Assembly: GCA_022509225.1 (NCBI GenBank)
Contig: JAFLTM010000010.1
Location: 1-37,950, forward strand
Direction of reading: 5' to 3'
From: Muribaculaceae bacterium
GTDB lineage: Bacteria > Bacteroidota > Bacteroidia > Bacteroidales > Muribaculaceae
Length of the DNA stretch: 37,950 bases
The notes under the pieces are model-generated. The model was not told the origin of the DNA. It did no database searches and saw only the letters and a list, made by a program, of their open reading frames with translations. The translations under genes were made by a program, and so were the position numbers. The first letter of the stretch is position 1. Every line of letters starts with the position of its first letter. Below are positions 3,267-29,045 of this stretch, piece by piece.

Positions 3267-3841
3267 CTAAGACCTGCAAGGGTCATGAACTCTTTTCTTA
3301 ATTCCGGATCGTTTTTGAAATTACCTGTAAATTCATAAGTGACAGTGGATGAATCTTGCTTCTCCACCCCTCTCATTTTCATACAAAGATGTGCAGCATC
3401 AACTGCAACAATCACTCCGTCATTTGGCAAGATTTTTGATATCACTTCACATATTTGAGAAGTAAATCTCTCTTGGACCTGCAATCTTTTTGCATAAACA
3501 TTAACAATACGAGCAAGTTTCGATAAGCCTATTATTTTCCCCTGAGGCAGATATCCTATACATACTTTTCCGAAAAAAGGAAGAATATGATGCTCACACA
3601 TGCTGTAAAATTCAATATCCTTCACTATAACCATTCCGGAGCCATTGTATTGAAATATAGCTTTCCCGCCTATCTCTTCTGCATCTTCTTCATAGCCTTC
3701 AGTTATAGCCAACAAAGCTTTGGCTGCTCTTTCCGGTGTTTTAAGCAATCCTTCACGTTCCGGTTCTTCTCCTATTAATTTCAATATCTCCTTGTAATGA
3801 AAGGCTATTTTCTTTGTCAGATTCTCCTTGTCAGCATTCAT
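3263..3841 (-). CDS. folE: GTP cyclohydrolase I
   Basis: The 192-residue enzyme converts GTP to 7,8-dihydroneopterin triphosphate, the first step of tetrahydrofolate synthesis (and of related pterin and deazapurine routes). The zinc ligands of the family are visible: Cys82 and His85 in SMCEHHILPFFG and Cys153 in AHLCMKMRG. The substrate-binding stretch GLSKLARIVNVYAKRLQVQE and the C-terminal KQDSSTVTYEFTG are also canonical. Length is normal for bacterial FolE. The ATG overlaps the stop codon of the upstream SPOR gene by 4 bp, implying translational coupling; tpiA lies before that. The 3' end runs into the bidirectional terminator. Confidence 0.97.
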   Translation of the reverse strand: MNADKENLTKKIAFHYKEILKLIGEEPEREGLLKTPERAAKALLAITEGYEEDAEEIGGKAIFQYNGSGMVIVKDIEFYSMCEHHILPFFGKVCIGYLPQGKIIGLSKLARIVNVYAKRLQVQERFTSQICEVISKILPNDGVIVAVDAAHLCMKMRGVEKQDSSTVTYEFTGNFKNDPELRKEFMTLAGLR

Positions 3842-4365
3842 TGCTTGATAATTACAATTTGGCTTTTAACCACCCTCATTTCATTTGAAAAACTTGGGAA
3901 TGCCTGTTTTAATTCCGTTAAAGCACTGTTTGCTTCAGCAACGGTCATGAAATTTCCGATTCTGGTGTACCAGTTGGGAGCATTGGAAAAAGTATAGATT
4001 TGACCTTTATACTTAGGGAATTTTGCCAAAATAGCATTTCCGCGAGCTTTAGCCCTTGATTCCAATGTATTTGGATTTCTGCCCTCTCCAAATACCTGGA
4101 TTCTATACCCGGCTAACTTATTTACACCGGGTTTTAGATTAGAGTGAGAACTTTTATTTGATGACGGCTGCAAAAGCAATTCTAAAATTGATTCAGGAAT
4201 TTCAATATTAATCCTGCCATCTGATTCGTTTTCAATTTTTTCAATTGGATTTACCGGCTCTTGCGCAAAAATGGGATGATTAAAAATGAATGAAAAAATA
4301 ACAAGGATAAGAAAGACCCTAAAAAAGGTCTTCCTTTCCTTATTGATCGATCCAAAATTTATCAT
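3838..4365 (-). CDS. SPOR-domain envelope protein
   Basis: A 175-residue protein with an N-terminal hydrophobic segment (about residues 14-34, FFRVFLILVIFSFIFNHPIF, with a possible cleavage site after FA), a variable Ser/Asn-rich linker, and a C-terminal SPOR domain (about 85-172, beginning AGYRIQVFGEG, with WYTRIGNFMT near its end). SPOR domains bind denuded septal peptidoglycan glycans, so a periplasmic cell-wall role is likely, but no specific partner can be inferred. It is the middle gene of the minus-strand set tpiA, SPOR, folE: 48 bp after tpiA and overlapping folE by 4 bp. This gene order recurs in Bacteroidales as far as I recall; the functional logic is unclear. Confidence 0.88.
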   Translation of the reverse strand: MINFGSINKERKTFFRVFLILVIFSFIFNHPIFAQEPVNPIEKIENESDGRINIEIPESILELLLQPSSNKSSHSNLKPGVNKLAGYRIQVFGEGRNPNTLESRAKARGNAILAKFPKYKGQIYTFSNAPNWYTRIGNFMTVAEANSALTELKQAFPSFSNEMRVVKSQIVIIKQ

Positions 4366-4413: not shown

Positions 4414-5166
4414 TTAATCAAAAGCTTTTACTATTCCCATAAATGATTCAGCTTCAAGAGAAGCACCTCCAATTAGGCCGCCATCAACATCCGTTTTGCT
4501 GAATAATTCTTTGGCATTACTCGGTTTGCAAGAACCACCATAGAGAATTGATGTGTTGTCTGCTATCTCGACACCATATTTTTGTGCTATCACTTTGCGT
4601 ATATGGGCATGCATCTCTTGAGCTTGATCGGACGTGGCAGTCTTTCCTGTTCCAATGGCCCAAACGGGTTCGTAAGCAATTATAATTTTCCCGAATTCTT
4701 CCGGAGTCAGTTCAAAAAGAGCTTCGACTTGAGCCTTAACGACTTCATTGTATGTGCCGTTTTCTCTTTCCTCAAGGACTTCACCTACACAAAATATTGG
4801 AGTAAGACCATTCTCTAATGCAAGTCTTGTTTTCTTTAGCAACATTTCATTGTTCTCTCCAAAATATTGGCGTCGTTCACTGTGGCCTAAGATAACGTGG
4901 GATGCACCGGTTGATTTAACCATCGACGCACTCACCTCACCTGTATAGGCACCCTTAACATGTTCTGAACAGTTTTCAGCTCCGAGTTTTAACGGTTCGT
5001 CAATCACTCCTTTTATAGAAACAAGATGAGTGAAAGGCACGCATATCACTACTTCGCATTTTGCCGGAGTTTCTTTTAAAAGATCATTCACCTGGCTTGC
5101 AAGTTCAACTCCTTCTTCCAGGACTGTATTCATTTTCCAGTTCCCTGCTACAATATTTTTTCTCAT
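4414..5166 (-). CDS. tpiA: Triosephosphate isomerase
   Basis: The 250-residue glycolytic enzyme interconverts dihydroxyacetone phosphate and glyceraldehyde 3-phosphate. All hallmark elements are present: Asn9 and Lys11 in GNWKMN, the electrophile His95 in LGHSERR, the catalytic base Glu166 in [14 protein letters not shown] (which includes the mobile loop 6), and the phosphate-binding loops YGGSC and GGLIGGASL. Length is exactly that of the family. It is first in a minus-strand operon with a SPOR protein and folE. A good Bacteroidota -7 box lies upstream at 5217-5224, in the spacer shared with divergent uvrB. Confidence 0.98.
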
Positions 5167-5275: not shown

Positions 5276-5291
5276 TTGGCACAAATATTGC
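5276..5291 (+). promoter_or_regulatory. Sigma-54 type -24/-12 promoter upstream of uvrB
   Basis: TTGGCAC-AAATA-TTGC is an exact match to the RpoN core (TGGCAC-N5-TTGC). The GG at 5278-5279 and the GC at 5290-5291 are separated by the required 10 bp. The predicted start near 5302 gives a leader of about 66 nt to the uvrB ATG at 5368. The motif lies in a non-coding spacer and points towards uvrB-ygiQ. The element is visible in the sequence; use by RpoN is inferred. Confidence 0.6.
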
Positions 5292-5343
5292 ATGTCTAAA
5301 TGGATTCATACAGATTAACCTAACCTGTTTGATTTCGATTCAT

Positions 5344-5351
5344 TATATTTG
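5344..5351 (+). promoter_or_regulatory. Possible housekeeping -7 box of uvrB
   Basis: TATATTTG fits TAnnTTTG 17 bp before the uvrB ATG, but no -33 TTTG is found at the usual 19-20 bp spacing. If used, it would give a leader of roughly 10 nt and would exclude any start codon upstream of 5368. Confidence 0.4.
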
Positions 5352-5367
5352 CAAAATATCTTTTTTA

Positions 5368-7485
5368 ATGGAATACAGACTTACATCAGAATATCAACCC
5401 ACGGGAGACCAGCCTGAAGCTATAGAGGAACTTGTGAAAGGAGTTGAAGCAGGGAATCCCCATCAGACATTACTTGGTGTGACAGGATCCGGAAAAACCT
5501 TCACCATGGCAAATGTGATCCAACAAGTCAAACGTCCAACGTTGATATTATCTCATAATAAAACTCTGGCTGCACAATTATATTCTGAATTCAAAACGTT
5601 TTTCCCGGAAAATTCGGTCCAATATTTTGTGAGCTATTATGATTATTATCAGCCCGAAGCCTATATCCCTTCTAATGACAAATATATTGAAAAGGACCTG
5701 ATGATAAACGATCAGATTGAAAGATTACGACTTTCAACAGTGGCCGCTCTTCTATCCGGAAGAAGGGATCTTGTCGTTGTATCAAGTGTAAGTTGCATAT
5801 ATGGGATGGGTAATCCCGATGATTTCACTCAAAGTGTGATAAATATATCAGTGGGCCAGAATATTGCGAGAAATCATTTTCTTCGAAAATTGGTTGATGC
5901 CCTCTACTCCCGTTCCGAGATCACATTGGCTCCGGGAGAATTCAGAGTTAAAGGTGACACAGTTGATATAATGTTGTCGTTCGAAGAGATACAGCTGCGT
6001 GTGATATTTTGGGGTGACGAGATAGAAAAAATTCAGACTGTTGACCCGCATACAGGTGTTGTGTTGTCTAATCTTGAAGGATTTAAAATTTATCCGGCTA
6101 ATATATTTGTCACCACCAAAGAAAGAATGGGGTCAGCAATCGATCGTATTTCTGTTGATCTGGGCAAACAATGTGATTTCTTTGTAAAAGAAGGAAGGAT
6201 GCTAGAGGCTGATAGATTGCGGGAAAGGGTTTCTTATGACTTGGAGATGATGAAAGAACTGGGGCATTGTTCGGGTATAGAGAATTATTCCAGATATTTC
6301 GACGGCAGAGAACCGGGAATGAGGCCATTCTGTCTTTTGGATTATTTCCCGCGTGATTTTCTCACCATAATAGATGAGAGCCATGTCACTATTCCTCAAT
6401 TAAGAGGTATGAATGGTGGAGATCTTTCCAGAAAGATGAATCTTGTTGAATATGGGTTTAGGCTACCTGCAGCAATCGACAATCGTCCTCTGAAATTTGA
6501 TGAATTTGATTCCTTGACCCCTCAAAAAATTTATGTCAGCGCTACACCGGGGGATTATGAACTTATAAAAAGTGAAGGAGTGTTCACTGAACAAGTGATT
6601 AGGCCTACAGGACTTTTGGATCCTGAAATAGTGGTGCGACCCACCATGAATCAAATTGATGATCTAATGGAAGAAATTAGAATCAGGATGGAAAATGATG
6701 AACGGGTTCTTGTCACAACTCTCACCAAACGAATGGCAGAAGAACTTGATGCACATCTAAGAAAATGGGGGGTGAGCAGCGCTTATATCCATAGTGATGT
6801 AGACACTTTGGAGAGAATAAGAATATTGGAAGACTTGAGAGAGGGTGTCTATGATGTTTTGGTAGGTGTTAACCTTTTGAGAGAGGGACTCGATCTTCCA
6901 CAAGTAAGTCTTGTGGCCATCCTTGATGCAGATAAAGAGGGATTTCTTCGTAATCACAGGTCTCTGACACAAACTGCAGGAAGGGCAGCAAGAAATGTCA
7001 ATGGGAAAGTTATAATGTATGCAGATAAAATAACTGACAGCATGCAAAAAACCATTGATGAAACAGAGAGACGAAGGGCTAAACAAAAACTTTATAATGA
7101 GAGGAATGGAATTGAACCCAGTCCTATTGTAAAAAAATCTTCTGCAAGAGAACTTATAACCTTATATGGAGGTGAGGAATTAACAGATGCAAAAAAAATG
7201 GTTCCTACTACTCCGGTTGAAAAAAGAGCTGCTGCTAAAGGAAAGACTTTTACCAAGCCTGCTGTTTCATATTATAATGAAGAGGAACATCAAATTGGTA
7301 TGGCGGCTGACCCGGTTATCGAGTATATGACAACCGATGAATTGAAAAAAAGAATTGAAAAGGTGAATCGTGATATGCTTGATGCCGCAAGGAAAACTGA
7401 CTTTATTTCAGCTGCAAAACTAAGGAATGAGCTTATAGCACTCGAAGAGATCCTTGAAAATAAGGAACTTTCAATAAATTCGTGA
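5368..7485 (+). CDS. uvrB: Excinuclease ABC subunit B
   Basis: UvrB is the damage-verifying helicase of nucleotide excision repair, loaded by UvrA and then recruiting UvrC. With the ATG at 5368 it has 705 residues and begins MEYRLTSEYQPTGDQ, the conserved N-terminus. In-frame codons extend back to 5329 but add non-homologous residues and lie across a candidate -7 box, so they were not used. Motifs: Walker A GVTGSGKT (37-44), the beta-hairpin region YYDYYQPEAYIP, DESH Walker B, SATP, motif VI region QTAGRAARN, and a C-terminal UVR motif that contacts UvrC. The next gene starts one base after the stop codon. A sigma-54 type element and a possible housekeeping -7 box lie upstream. Confidence 0.97.
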   Translation: MEYRLTSEYQPTGDQPEAIEELVKGVEAGNPHQTLLGVTGSGKTFTMANVIQQVKRPTLILSHNKTLAAQLYSEFKTFFPENSVQYFVSYYDYYQPEAYIPSNDKYIEKDLMINDQIERLRLSTVAALLSGRRDLVVVSSVSCIYGMGNPDDFTQSVINISVGQNIARNHFLRKLVDALYSRSEITLAPGEFRVKGDTVDIMLSFEEIQLRVIFWGDEIEKIQTVDPHTGVVLSNLEGFKIYPANIFVTTKERMGSAIDRISVDLGKQCDFFVKEGRMLEADRLRERVSYDLEMMKELGHCSGIENYSRYFDGREPGMRPFCLLDYFPRDFLTIIDESHVTIPQLRGMNGGDLSRKMNLVEYGFRLPAAIDNRPLKFDEFDSLTPQKIYVSATPGDYELIKSEGVFTEQVIRPTGLLDPEIVVRPTMNQIDDLMEEIRIRMENDERVLVTTLTKRMAEELDAHLRKWGVSSAYIHSDVDTLERIRILEDLREGVYDVLVGVNLLREGLDLPQVSLVAILDADKEGFLRNHRSLTQTAGRAARNVNGKVIMYADKITDSMQKTIDETERRRAKQKLYNERNGIEPSPIVKKSSARELITLYGGEELTDAKKMVPTTPVEKRAAAKGKTFTKPAVSYYNEEEHQIGMAADPVIEYMTTDELKKRIEKVNRDMLDAARKTDFISAAKLRNELIALEEILENKELSINS

Positions 7486-7486
7486 G

Positions 7487-9364
7487 ATGGGAAATGTGAA
7501 AAATCCCATTAGAAAAGAATATTTTCTGCCTACCACAAGGGATGAAATGATCCGATTGGGGTGGGATCAGGCGGATATAATCATTTTTTCCGGTGATGCT
7601 TATGTAGACCATCCTTCATTTGGAGCTTCAGTTATTGGAAGGGTTTTACAAAACGCCGGATTTAAGGTTGCGATAGTCCCTCAACCTAACTGGAGAGATG
7701 ATCTCAGAGATTTTAAAAAATTAGGGAGACCTCGTTTATTTTTTGGTGTTTCAGCCGGTGCCATGGATTCAATGGTGAACCATTACACTGCCGGTCGACG
7801 TCTTCGTCATGACGATGCATACACCCCGGGCGGCCGACATGGTATGCGCCCCGATTATCCAACTATTGTTTATTCAAAAATCCTGAAAGAACTCTATCCG
7901 GATAGTCCTGTAATTGCAGGTGGAATAGAGGCATCTCTCCGCAGGGTTTCACATTATGATTATTGGCAGGATAAACTTCGTCCTTCCATTTTGTCGGACT
8001 CAGGAGCCGATATGTTATGTTACGGCATGGGAGAAAGGACCATGTTGGAAATTGCACGTCAACTGGATTCCGGCATCCCAATCCATGAAATTACTGATAT
8101 TCCTCAGACCGTGCTCTTTTCTAACCAGATTCCCGCATCAACAGATATAAGGCTTCACAGTTATGAGGATTGTTTAAAAAATAAAAAGCTTCAGGCAGCA
8201 AATTTCAAATTTATTGAAGAGGAGTCAAATAAATATGAGGGGAAGGTGATATGGCAGAAAACCGGAAATAAAATGATAAAGATCAATCCGTTGTTCCATC
8301 CTATGACAGAGGATGAAATGGATGCGATCTATTCCTTGCCTTTCACCCGGATGCCCCATCCTCGATATAAGGGGAAGGATATTCCTGCCTATAATATGAT
8401 AAGACATTCCGTCACATTGCATCGAGGATGCTTTGGCGGCTGCTCGTTTTGCACAATTTCTGCCCATCAAGGAAAATTCATATCATCACGGTCAAAAGAG
8501 TCTGTGCTCAAAGAAGTGAAACAGATTACTGAAATGAATGATTTCAAGGGATATATATCTGATTTAGGGGGGCCATCCGCTAATATGTATTCTCTGAAAG
8601 GGAAAGATATTGAAATTTGTAAAAAATGCAAAAAGCCATCTTGTCTCCATCCGGTTGTGTGTCCTAATCTGAATGTAAATCACAGTAAACTGCTTGACTT
8701 ATATAAAAGTGCTTCTTCAATTGAGGGAGTAAAAAAAACTTTTGTGGGTAGTGGAGTAAGGTATGATCTGGCAATGGCGCCTGTTATTAATCCTGTTGAT
8801 AGGGATATAAATAATAAATATATAGAGGAATTAATTGAGCATCATGTGAGCGGAAGACTTAAAGTGGCACCGGAGCACACTTCAGACCATGTATTAAATT
8901 TGATGAGGAAACCCTCTTTCTCATTATTTAAAAAGTTTAAAGCTAAGTTCGAAAGTGTAAATAGAGCTCAAAATTTAAAACAGGAACTAATACCTTACTT
9001 TATTTCTTCTCATCCGGGATGCAAGCTGGATGATATGGCCGATCTGGTTGTGGAAACAAAAGATTTGAATTACCACCTCGAACAGGTACAGGATTTTACT
9101 CCCACACCAATGACGCTATCCACTGAAATATATTATAGTGGAATCAATCCATACACCGGAGAAAAAATATATATTCCAAAAACAGAAGAAGAAAAGAAAT
9201 TTCAAAAACAATTTTTTTTCTGGTACAAACCGGAATTGTTTAGAGACTTGTCTCTATTTTTGAAGAAAGTGGGAAGAATAGATATTTTAAAAAGACTTTC
9301 CTCGAATTCTGAAAGAAATTATCGCAAGAAAAATTCAAAGAGAGAAAGACCTGAGCCATATTGA
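7487..9364 (+). CDS. ygiQ: YgiQ-family radical SAM protein
   Basis: The 625-residue protein belongs to the UPF0313/YgiQ group of radical SAM enzymes. An N-terminal domain (LPTTRDEMIRLGWDQADIIIFSGDAYVDHPSFG) precedes the radical SAM domain, whose [4Fe-4S] cluster ligands are Cys315, Cys319 and Cys322 in RGCFGGCSFC. A second Cys-rich stretch follows (CKKCKKPSCLHPVVCPN), then the DUF3362-type C-terminal part and a basic tail. The reaction is not established for the family as far as I know. One base separates its ATG from the uvrB stop, so the two are cotranscribed, which may hint at a stress-related role but does not prove it. Length is slightly below that of E. coli YgiQ. Confidence 0.93.
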   Translation: MGNVKNPIRKEYFLPTTRDEMIRLGWDQADIIIFSGDAYVDHPSFGASVIGRVLQNAGFKVAIVPQPNWRDDLRDFKKLGRPRLFFGVSAGAMDSMVNHYTAGRRLRHDDAYTPGGRHGMRPDYPTIVYSKILKELYPDSPVIAGGIEASLRRVSHYDYWQDKLRPSILSDSGADMLCYGMGERTMLEIARQLDSGIPIHEITDIPQTVLFSNQIPASTDIRLHSYEDCLKNKKLQAANFKFIEEESNKYEGKVIWQKTGNKMIKINPLFHPMTEDEMDAIYSLPFTRMPHPRYKGKDIPAYNMIRHSVTLHRGCFGGCSFCTISAHQGKFISSRSKESVLKEVKQITEMNDFKGYISDLGGPSANMYSLKGKDIEICKKCKKPSCLHPVVCPNLNVNHSKLLDLYKSASSIEGVKKTFVGSGVRYDLAMAPVINPVDRDINNKYIEELIEHHVSGRLKVAPEHTSDHVLNLMRKPSFSLFKKFKAKFESVNRAQNLKQELIPYFISSHPGCKLDDMADLVVETKDLNYHLEQVQDFTPTPMTLSTEIYYSGINPYTGEKIYIPKTEEEKKFQKQFFFWYKPELFRDLSLFLKKVGRIDILKRLSSNSERNYRKKNSKRERPEPY

Positions 9365-14344: not shown

Positions 14345-16894
14345 TTATTTGTCAATCAGAGACTCGTATTCAACTTTGGGTTTCTCATCGCCTTCAGAGT
14401 AAGACACATTGATATTTCCAGCTATCTTACCTTCAGCATTTAACCTCAACATAAGTTCAGCCAACTCATCTTCAAGGTATTTTTGGATCGACCTTTTTAA
14501 TGGCCTTGCCCCGAAGTTTCTGTCATAGCCCTTTTCTGCAATGAAAAGTTTGGCTTCGTCGCTTATATTAAGATTAAAACCAAGTTTCTCAACTCTTGAA
14601 TAATAATCTTTTAATTCTATGTCAATGATCTTGAGGATTGCATCCTTCTCCAATTGATCGAACATGATGATATCGTCAACCCTGTTCAAAAATTCCGGTG
14701 AAAATGCCCTGTTCAAAGCTTTGGATATTACACTCTGGGCTTGTTGTTTGGACACAACCTCGGTGTTAAATCCGACACCTCCCCCGAATTCTTTCAGCTG
14801 ACGAGAACCCACATTACTCGTCATGATCAGGATTGTGTTTTTAAAGTCTATTTTCCTGCCTAAAGAATCGGTTAGCCTTCCTTCATCCATCACTTGAAGA
14901 AGAAGATTGAACACATCCGGATGCGCCTTCTCTATCTCATCAAGCAACACCACTGAATAAGGATGCCTCCTTACTTTTTCTGTAAGCTGTCCGCCTTCTT
15001 CATATCCAACATATCCCGGAGGTGCTCCAACAAGTCTTGAAACGGTGAATTTTTCCATAAATTCACTCATGTCAAGTCGAATCAAAGCATCTTTGGAATC
15101 AAAAAGATATTCTGCAATCTTCTTTGCAAGATGTGTTTTCCCTACTCCTGTGGGCCCTAAAAACATAAACACACCAATTGGCTTGTCAGGATTTTTAAGA
15201 CCTATACGGTTGCGTTGAATTGCCTTGACAACTTTTTTTATTGCATCATCCTGACCAATCACTGACCCTTCGAGCACTGAACCCATTTGCAAAAGTCTGC
15301 TTCCTTCAGCCTGTGCAATCCGTTGGGTGGGCACGCCTGTCATCATGGCAACAACTTGTGCCACATTTTCTTCATCAACCGGCTGCCGTTCCTCATCTAT
15401 TTTCTTTTCCCAATCCTGTTTAACTTTTTCAAGTTCCTGCTTCTTTTTATTCTCTTCGTCTCTTAACGAAGCAGCGAGTTCAAAGTTTTGTGATTTTGCT
15501 GCCTGAAGTTTTTCTTCAGTTATTTTGTCAATCTCTTTTTCAAGTTTTTCTATTTCTTCCGGCACCACAATTTTTGTTATATGAACTCTGGATCCGGCTT
15601 CATCGAGTGCATCAAGAGCTTTATCGGGGAAATTACGGTCGCTGACATACCTTTGGGTAAGGTCAACACATGCGCGTAGAGCCTCATCAGTATAATTTAC
15701 ATTATGGTGACTCTCATATTTGTCTTTAACCTTTTTCAAGATCTCCAATGTCTCATCTGGTGTAGTAGGCTCCACCATTACTTTCTGGAAACGACGTTCC
15801 AAGGCACCGTCTTTTTCAATATTCTGCCGGTATTCATCAAGAGTCGTGGCACCAACACACTGGATTTCGCCTCTTGCCAATGCAGGTTTAAGCATATTGG
15901 CGGCATCCATGGATCCGGCGGCTCCACCAGCACCGACAATGGTATGGATTTCATCAATGAAAAGGATTATATCGGGATTTTTCTGAAGTTCATCTAAAAC
16001 CGCCTTTATCCTTTCTTCAAATTGACCACGATATTTTGTGCCCGCCACCATTCCTGCCATGTCAAGACCGATCACTCTTTTATTGAGAAGGACACGTGGC
16101 ACCAGATGTTGCATAATTCTAATTGCCAGTCCTTCTACTATAGCAGATTTACCCACACCCGGTTCACCTATTAAAACGGGATTGTTCTTTTTTCTTCGAG
16201 AAAGAATCTGGGCTAACCTCTCTATTTCATTTTCTCTACCCACCACTGGATCAAGCCTGCCTTCAGCGGCAGCTTTTGTCATATCATATCCAAATTTATC
16301 CAAGGCAGGTGTGTCGGTTTTCTGACCTTTCGCACGAGTTGACCCCGGTTTGTTACCACGATTAAAATTGTCAGGCTGACCAAAGGGGGGCATATCATCC
16401 TCGTCATCCTCCTCCTCAAAGTTTTTACCGGCCTTGGGCAATGAAAAATCATTAAGATTCTGAATGGTTATATCAAAATTCAGATATTTCTCTTTTATGT
16501 TTTTTAACACTTCGCTGTCCATGGCTCTTTGATCATGAATCAGAGCAAGCAAGATGTGTTCACCTGACACAACATGAGCATTCATTTTCCTTGCCTCAGA
16601 CACGGCGAGATGCAGATGCCTTATGGCGGAAAGAGTTATTTTAAAATGTTGTTCGAACAAAGTGGTGCTTTCTAAAGGGGTTTCATTAGAGCTGAGATAA
16701 TCCTCTAAAAGTTGTTCCATTTCTTCAATCGGAATATTGAGCTGGCTAAGAATCCTGTAGGCATAACCGTCGTGATTCCGGAGTGCCCCTAAAACAAAGT
16801 GTTCGCTTTGAATGACACCGGAATTAAATTTTTTGGCTTCATTATAGGCTGCTTCGAGTATAGGACGAAACTGCCTTGAATAATCATTTTTCAT
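14345..16894 (-). CDS. clpC: Clp protease ATP-binding subunit ClpC
   Basis: The 849-residue AAA+ unfoldase feeds substrates to ClpP. The N-domain with two Clp repeats (about 1-145) is followed by an unusually acidic linker (EEEDDEDD, about 160-167). The first AAA domain has Walker A GEPGVGKS (243-250) and Walker [10 protein letters not shown] middle region carries a UVR-like motif ([16 protein letters not shown]), which marks ClpC rather than ClpA or ClpB. The second AAA domain has Walker A GPTGVGKT (580-587) and Walker [10 protein letters not shown]. The C-terminal D2-small domain is complete. It is monocistronic and divergent from gyrA. Its 210-bp upstream spacer holds an exact sigma-54 type element and no convincing minus-strand TAnnTTTG box, so sigma-54 control is a real possibility. 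Confidence 0.95.
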
Positions 16895-21097: not shown

Positions 21098-22117
21098 ATG
21101 GGTCTTTTTTCCTTTACACAAGAAATAGCAATGGATTTAGGCACAGCCAATTCCATTATAATACATAACGATAAAATAGTAGTTGATGAGCCATCTGTTG
21201 TGGCCATTGAAAATAAAACCGACAAGCTGCTTGCAGTTGGCACACAGGCTCACCAGATGGAAGGGAAAGAACCTCCGGGGATTCGGACTATACGCCCATT
21301 GAGAGACGGTGTTATAGCAGATTTTAATGCAGCCGAGCAGATGATCCGAGGTTTGATAAAGATGGTTAGCTCTAAACGCAGGTGGTTTTCTCCCTCCTTA
21401 AGAATGGTTGTGTGTATCCCATCAGGTTCCACTGAAGTCGAAATCAGAGCGGTGCGAGATTCGTCGGAACATGCCGGTGGCCGAGATGTGTATATGATCT
21501 ATGAGCCTATGGCTGCCGCCCTTGGCATAGGATTGGATGTTGAGGCACCTGAGGGAAATATGATAGTGGATATAGGTGGAGGATCAACCGAGATTGCAGT
21601 GATTTCGCTTGGAGGTATTGTCAGCAATAAAAGTATAAGAATTGCCGGAAATGATCTCACAGCCGATATTCAGGAACACATGGCAAGAGTCCATAATTTA
21701 AAGGTTGGCACAACAATGGCAGAACAGATAAAAATAAATGTCGGCTCAGCTTTGCCTTTCCTTGAAGATGGTCCCGAACCGTTTGTAGTAACTGGTCCGA
21801 ATAAAATGACTTCGTTGCCTATGACGGTGCCAGTTACTTACGAAGAGATTTCACATTCAATCGACAAAACTATTTCACGAATGGAGGCTGCCATCTTGGC
21901 GGCCCTGGAAGAAACACCCCCTGAATTATATGCCGACATAGTGAAAAACGGTATTTATCTTGCGGGTGGAGGTGCGCTCTTGAAAGGGCTTGCAAAAAGA
22001 CTGACCGATAAGATTAAAATTGAATTCATAGTGGCTGATGATCCTTTGCATGCCGTTGCTAAAGGAACCGGTGTGGCTCTGAAAAATATCAACAGATTTT
22101 CTTTCCTCATCAGGTGA
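21098..22117 (+). CDS. mreB: Rod-shape determining protein MreB
   Basis: The 339-residue bacterial actin forms membrane-bound filaments that direct lateral peptidoglycan synthesis. Actin-fold signatures are the phosphate-1 loop MDLGTANS near the N-terminus, phosphate-2 IVDIGGGSTEIAVISLGG, and the adenosine loop YLAGGGALLKGL. Length is standard. It is the first gene of the elongasome cluster mreB-mreC-mreD-PBP2-rodA. A perfect 8-bp hairpin spans its stop codon, which may lower readthrough into mreC. Confidence 0.97.
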   Translation: MGLFSFTQEIAMDLGTANSIIIHNDKIVVDEPSVVAIENKTDKLLAVGTQAHQMEGKEPPGIRTIRPLRDGVIADFNAAEQMIRGLIKMVSSKRRWFSPSLRMVVCIPSGSTEVEIRAVRDSSEHAGGRDVYMIYEPMAAALGIGLDVEAPEGNMIVDIGGGSTEIAVISLGGIVSNKSIRIAGNDLTADIQEHMARVHNLKVGTTMAEQIKINVGSALPFLEDGPEPFVVTGPNKMTSLPMTVPVTYEEISHSIDKTISRMEAAILAALEETPPELYADIVKNGIYLAGGGALLKGLAKRLTDKIKIEFIVADDPLHAVAKGTGVALKNINRFSFLIR

Positions 22118-28737: not shown

Positions 28738-29045
28738 CGGGTAAAGGCAAATGCCTTTCTTCTTTTTAAATATTCAGGGTCATCCTGATTCAAATATGCC
28801 TCCCTTTCAAACGAAATATTTTTATAGGCTTTGTAAGAATTTCTGTAGAGAATTAATTTAATTATCCATTCAATGATGTAAAACAGATAGAACGGTATGA
28901 AAAGAGTTTCAAGTTGTTGGCACGTGTGGATTTTTTCGTGATTCAAAATGATTTCACTGCAGTCCCCTTTAGCAAAAATTATCCCGAAAAGATTTATCGC
29001 ATAAAACCTTTTTCCAACAGGCAATATCTTATTAATAATAATCAT
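28716..29045 (-). CDS. Small membrane protein with HExxH motif (minimal M56/M48-like)
   Basis: A 109-residue protein with HEKIH (His36, Glu37, His40) in NHEKIHTCQQLE, then a hydrophobic helix FIPFYLFYIIEWIIKLILY (49-67), then ISFEREAYLN with candidate third ligands Glu80 or Glu82. The order HExxHxxQ, hydrophobic helix, Trp, ExEA matches the core of the M56 peptidase at 34718-36316 (HEQAHVDQ ... FQWFNPAAWF ... HEYEADRY). I have seen similar hypothetical proteins in Bacteroidales. No other domain is present. Whether it is an active protease is unknown. Its ATG overlaps that of divergent rlmH, and its 3' end overlaps the nitrilase gene by 22 bp. Confidence 0.75.
   Translation of the reverse strand: MIIINKILPVGKRFYAINLFGIIFAKGDCSEIILNHEKIHTCQQLETLFIPFYLFYIIEWIIKLILYRNSYKAYKNISFEREAYLNQDDPEYLKRRKAFAFTRYIFSSK
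28743..28766 (+). terminator. Terminator-like hairpin after the nitrilase gene
   Basis: AAAGGCA (28743-28749) pairs with TGCCTTT (28752-28758), practically a 6-bp stem with a 4-nt loop, followed by CTTCTTTTT. It sits 5 bp after the nitrilase stop codon and inside the coding sequence of the minus-strand small gene. Confidence 0.55.

Follow-up and report, generated by a model that had tools for sequence, protein, structure and literature searches.

The analysed window, a stretch of 37,950 nucleotides, is contig C2 of a 1.98 Mb Muribaculaceae assembly that is 83% complete (genome G000). It carries uvrB (5368..7485, + strand), encoding the 705-residue excinuclease ABC subunit B (TIGR00631 and NF003673 above cut-off; Pfam UvrB domains), followed after a single base by ygiQ (7487..9364, +), encoding a YgiQ-family radical SAM protein (TIGR03904 above cut-off); the two genes presumably share one transcript. 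The divergent neighbour of uvrB is tpiA, the gene for triosephosphate isomerase (4414..5166, - strand; PF00121). Between tpiA and a GTP cyclohydrolase I gene lies a 175-aa ORF without a Pfam match (3838-4365, -), and a protein resembling it adjoins tpiA in several relatives. Upstream of uvrB, positions 5276-5291 (+) read TTGGCACAAATATTGC, i.e. TTGGCAC-AAATA-TTGC, exactly as in the initial annotation. This candidate sigma-54 (-24/-12) promoter element has the GG-N10-GC core, the leading T and an A directly after the GC, and the ATG of uvrB (5368) follows 76 nt downstream. Sigma-54-dependent starts sit about 12 nt past the GC, a spacing that predicts a start near 5303 (+) and a uvrB leader of about 65 nt, close to the ~66 nt given earlier. 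A putative housekeeping -7 box, TATATTTG, occupies 5344..5351 (+) and fits the TAnnTTTG consensus used in PMC9723704.

The window contains only one other exact TGGCAC-N5-TTGC site. It precedes clpC (14345..16894, -), which encodes a Clp ATPase with Clp_N, AAA_2, UVR and ClpB_D2-small domains; the candidate element, TTGGCACATTATTTGC at 16962-16947 (-), lies 52 nt before the ATG and has the same core and leading T as that of uvrB, as had been reported. Several intragenic TTGGCAC strings had been described as lacking the TTGC part, which is true of those at 21237 and 28917-28918, but the string at 21705-21706 (TGGCACAACAATGGC) keeps GG-N10-GC and departs from the core by one base. The uvrB leader (5309-5318, +) and the clpC leader (16909-16900, -) have the 10-mer TACAGATTAA in common at different offsets from the element, probably by chance.

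Across the G000 assembly the exact core occurs 12 times, against two occurrences of the reversed pattern; with the leading T the counts are nine and zero. Four of the 12 sites are intergenic, 29-76 nt before the start codons of uvrB, clpC, groES-groEL and a phoH-like gene, and the remaining eight fall within ORFs, so background sites evidently exist. A looser class was defined as TTGGCA[CT]N5TTG[ACT] for genome counts and, with the leading T dropped, as TGGCA[CT]N5TTG[ACT] for promoter scans. With the leading T, this class numbers 22 sites against 6 reversed in G000, 30 against 4 in the relative G008 and 21 against 10 in the relative G025. In G000, six of the 22 are intergenic, each 26-76 nt before the start of uvrB, clpC, groES, clpP, the phoH-like gene or an HlyD-like gene, and 16 lie inside ORFs of at least 120 aa. 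Class sites at groES, clpC and clpP are common to all three genomes. When the counts of the exact core with its leading T are summed over the 36 relatives of the same genus, they give 105 sites, and the reversed control gives 62; the core outnumbers the control in 19 genomes, equals it in 11 and falls below it in 6. The genome-wide excess is therefore modest in the relatives and strong in G000.

Promoter scans covered the 300 nt upstream of each gene in 37 genomes placed in one genus by the classification tool. They used the best 30 of the matches for clpC, the phoH-like gene and uvrB, the 30 loci from all genomes with a match for groES, and 27 orthologues for uvrA; loci missing from the scan include uvrB of G011, G018 and G028 and clpC of G023. 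The class motif is conserved at groES (28/30) and clpC (29/30), and not at uvrB (2/30); it occurs at 8/27 uvrA genes, 3/30 phoH-like genes and 4/173 background gene starts taken from the same loci. The reversed class is found once each at groES and clpC (1/30) and nowhere at the phoH-like gene (0/30), uvrB (0/30), uvrA (0/27) or the background starts (0/173). Allowing up to two mismatches, 29/30 loci are positive for both groES and clpC, and the clpC site of G022 lies ~320 nt upstream, outside the 300-nt scan.

The distribution at uvrB is much narrower. The initial annotation had taken loss of the motif in sister species to speak against it, and the element is indeed absent from 28 of the 30 same-genus uvrB promoters, that of G025 among them. 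Exact sites are found in G000 at -76 and in G008 at -49. These two positions do not align with each other, so the site has either moved or arisen twice. The UvrB proteins of G025 and G008 are about equally close to that of G000 (88% and 87% identity). A 30-genome ClpC tree joins G000 to G008 with a support of 93/72, short of what the tool counts as firm, within a firmly supported group of three genomes that G025 completes. A second role of the G008 sequence TTTGGCAC as a -33 box was considered and, in view of the spacing, rejected. Among 80 uvrB loci from named genomes, L039 alone carries the class motif (TGGCACACCTTTTGT at -54, ending in TTGT); a scan of the same loci requiring GG and GC exactly gave two matches only, both with two mismatches and outside the class (L054 at -87 and L067 at -211). 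Thirteen of these 80 matches begin at a non-ATG codon and two have less than 300 nt upstream; among the 30 same-genus loci, L180 has 154 nt upstream and L188 begins at a non-ATG codon. Taken together, after subtraction of eight loci sharing sequence, 3 of 102 distinct uvrB loci possess the class motif, two of them in exact form. In simulated sets of 30 uvrB upstream regions, an exact site arose in 0/200 sets, at least two one-mismatch matches in 1/200 and at least two class matches in 2/1000, related genomes being treated as independent in these and all other simulations.

The other excision-repair gene shows a recurrent pattern. The eight uvrA genes with the class motif belong to G001, G005, G008, G009, G012, G014, G026 and G035, against a simulated mean of 0.04 and a largest value of 1 in 1000 sets (again with related genomes taken as independent). 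None of the 27 orthologues has an exact site, four have a site within one mismatch, and the distances run to the start of the protein match, which is often inside the gene. In G008, TTGGCATATATTTTGC lies 17 nt before a UvrA gene scoring above the TIGR00630 and NF001503 cut-offs. Six of the eight motif-bearing genomes are on the ClpC tree, at about five places; the sites of G005, G012 and G014 have flanking letters in common and may, judging from these letters, represent one event. A second UvrA paralogue, ~37% identical, bears the class motif in two of the eight genomes scanned among those that have it (L355 and L356, from G010 and G031); these two occupy neighbouring places on the tree and lack the motif at the first uvrA. 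UvrA was not found in the 83% complete G000 assembly.

The uvrB element is probably a real but auxiliary, lineage-specific sigma-54 promoter that would operate beside the housekeeping -7 promoter. RpoN polymerase would form a closed complex at the GG/GC element (5276-5291), to be opened under protein-folding or envelope stress by one of the genome's three AAA+ activators. The cell would then make a second uvrB-ygiQ transcript, starting near 5303, besides the basal transcript that the -7 box (5344-5351) provides. On the same reading, the element would have joined only recently an older proteostasis regulon under sigma-54 control, comprising groESL, clpC, clpP and htpG, with excision-repair genes recruited repeatedly, uvrA in several lineages and uvrB here. 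Binding, transcription, the stress signal and the identity of the acting activator at uvrB are all inferred.

The -7 box itself argues against a promoter served by sigma-54 only. The box proposed in the initial annotation is present in the window, and TAnnTTTG occurs within 70 nt of uvrB in 16/30 genomes, where simulation predicts 1.6; at the same distance it is found in just 1/30 genomes at groES and 3/30 at clpC. As the box is scarce at groES and clpC and frequent at uvrB, the former two genes look mainly sigma-54-driven, and uvrB looks mainly housekeeping-driven with an addition here. The same frequency at uvrB can be read differently: the element might be a chance match, and uvrB-ygiQ transcribed only by the housekeeping sigma factor from the -7 box. 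The eight intragenic exact sites in G000, the empty promoters of 28 same-genus genomes including the close G025, and the non-aligned positions in G000 and G008 all fit such an accident. However, the two genomes with exact uvrB sites are paired on the ClpC tree, L039 has a third class site, class sites recur at uvrA, and the reversed control yields only two exact sites genome-wide. Coincidence appears unlikely, though it deserves serious attention.

The machinery that an auxiliary sigma-54 promoter would need is encoded in G000. RpoN scores above the TIGR02395 cut-off and contains the RpoN box SRRTIAKYR; the family is present in 4/14 control genomes. PF00158 has seven matches in G000, of which three are strong (L014, L015 and L016; >220 bits) and carry GAFTGA or GSFTGA, and four are weak, ClpC itself among them. 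Since the PF00158 family is present in 14/14 control genomes, it is the GAFTGA-type loops that bear the claim for activators. From the gene surroundings, two of the three activators read as NtrC-like response regulators beside kinase-like neighbours, and one is without a receiver domain. When the surroundings of 56 groES and clpC sites were compared for an upstream activator site common to them, the recurring words were only modestly more frequent than in simulation and no dyad emerged. The RpoN DNA-binding domain of G007, G017, G021 and G035 matches as two pieces within one open frame, which suggests an insert.

A motif of this kind could be genuine and yet be bound by a regulator other than RpoN polymerase. 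Family and full-protein searches did not find rpoN in 3/36 same-genus relatives (G034, G022 and G032), whose groES and clpC elements remain; G034 is 99% complete and retains exact elements at both genes. The family search likewise did not find rpoN in 2/24 same-order genomes (G040 and G052). In addition, the base after TTG is frequently T or A in place of C. In the three same-genus relatives, assembly gaps and true loss are both possible, and gaps would remove the difficulty. The spacing and core are, however, those of the textbook sigma-54 promoter, and the -7 box is rare at groES and clpC. Furthermore, in Flavobacterium psychrophilum a -24/-12 motif (SM4) precedes the mapped starts of GroESL, Lon, DnaK, GrpE-DnaJ, HtpG and ClpB (PMC9723704), and a different regulator is accordingly highly improbable. 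Even slightly less credible is binding of RpoN polymerase as a road-block, or in the service of another transcript, with uvrB expression not raised: the element is 5' of and near the -7 promoter and near the divergent tpiA, but its orientation points to uvrB and nothing specific favours repression.

In Escherichia coli, uvrA and uvrB are controlled by the SOS/LexA system, which likewise makes excision repair stress-inducible, through a different regulator. Among the matches listed in literature searches directed at excision repair, control of uvrA or uvrB by sigma-54 was not found, and in a term search sigma54 and RpoN were absent from two Bacteroides thetaiotaomicron transcriptome papers (PMC12596196; PMC7366714). 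In Salmonella, genotoxic stress switches on an RNA-repair operon through an RpoN promoter controlled by RtcR (PMC9879122). That system resembles the one proposed here in that a sigma-54 promoter makes genes for nucleic-acid repair responsive to stress; it differs in that RNA is what is repaired, the activator is a dedicated one and the signal is genotoxic (SOS-dependent). In the parts of that study consulted here, uvrB figures only as a deleted test gene (PMC9879122).

Further parallels come from other Bacteroidota. The sigma-54 regulon of F. psychrophilum is like that of G000 in having a -24/-12 element before groES-groEL and three PF00158 proteins, and its remFG-sprCDBF operon combines a sigma-54 promoter with another one, as proposed for uvrB; it differs in that uvrB, uvrA, excinuclease and clpC appear nowhere in the main text (PMC9723704). 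In a comparative study, heat-shock and ATP-dependent protease COGs of Bacteroidota are reported as enriched for sigma-54 promoters, B. thetaiotaomicron GrpE and GroES are described as sigma-54-dependent, and enrichment is also reported for some DNA-repair COGs, e.g., COG2003 (PMC12316311). The heat-shock and protease targets are thus shared with the present genomes, whereas uvrB, excinuclease, COG0556 and COG0178 are not in its main text (PMC12316311). The initial annotation had presented a stress-repair grouping of this sort as one not familiar to it from the literature. Given that a sigma-54 proteostasis regulon with chaperones, Clp and Lon is already published (PMC9723704; PMC12316311), the grouping is mostly known, although its excision-repair part was not met among the literature matches listed. 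Sigma-54 control of chaperones together with Clp proteases is therefore of a known kind, and the candidate novelty is that such a regulon extends to excision repair.

The RpoN regulon proposed to join uvrB with ClpC accordingly survives in several respects: RpoN and its activators are present, the clpC and groES elements are conserved, the uvrB element is shared with G008, and uvrA offers a recurrent parallel; it fails in the conservation of uvrB. The motif is distributed unevenly over the repair genes but keeps recurring, so the uvr sites look like a minor, evolving outgrowth of a stress regulon that is already known. Whether excision repair, through uvrA in several lineages and uvrB-ygiQ here, has been repeatedly drawn into the proteostasis regulon, such that protein-damage or envelope signals would prime DNA repair, is an evenly balanced question. 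Descriptions of stress-gene control in Bacteroidota are sparse. Should the uvr elements be functional, RpoN would couple excision repair to protein-quality control in these gut bacteria, and the patchy presence of the elements would provide a natural gain/loss set for how a promoter joins a regulon. For this group of bacteria, the groES and clpC sites provide a firm reference from which the RpoN element can be defined.

Further genes carry the motif. Three of the four background matches (L214, L215 and L216, from G034, G030 and G004) precede, by 45-71 nt, a gene in the vicinity of clpC that is htpG-like by reading of the translation, and so these are probably true targets too. The class motif is also found 26-89 nt before clpP in G000 (L282), G008 (L290) and G025 (L281), with G000 ClpP scoring above its NCBIfam cut-off, so that the regulon may include the complete ClpCP protease. 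The phoH-like gene, which scores below the NCBIfam PhoH cut-off, was rejected as a stable target, with the class motif in just 3/30 genomes (AGGCAC-type matches before it were left out of the count). The HlyD-like, TolC-like and rpoB genes are identified by reading of translations. Class motifs precede HlyD-like or TolC-like efflux genes at L271 (G000:C15:17322), L274 and L264; L271 shares its contig with two activator genes and is separated by ~1.6 kb from one of the activator matches. Sites before a TolC-like gene and before rpoB are common to G008 and G025, those of rpoB lying 71 and 82 nt upstream (L299, G008:C45:138764; L306, G025:C271:6008), an odd position for a sigma-54-type element, at the gene of an RNA polymerase subunit.
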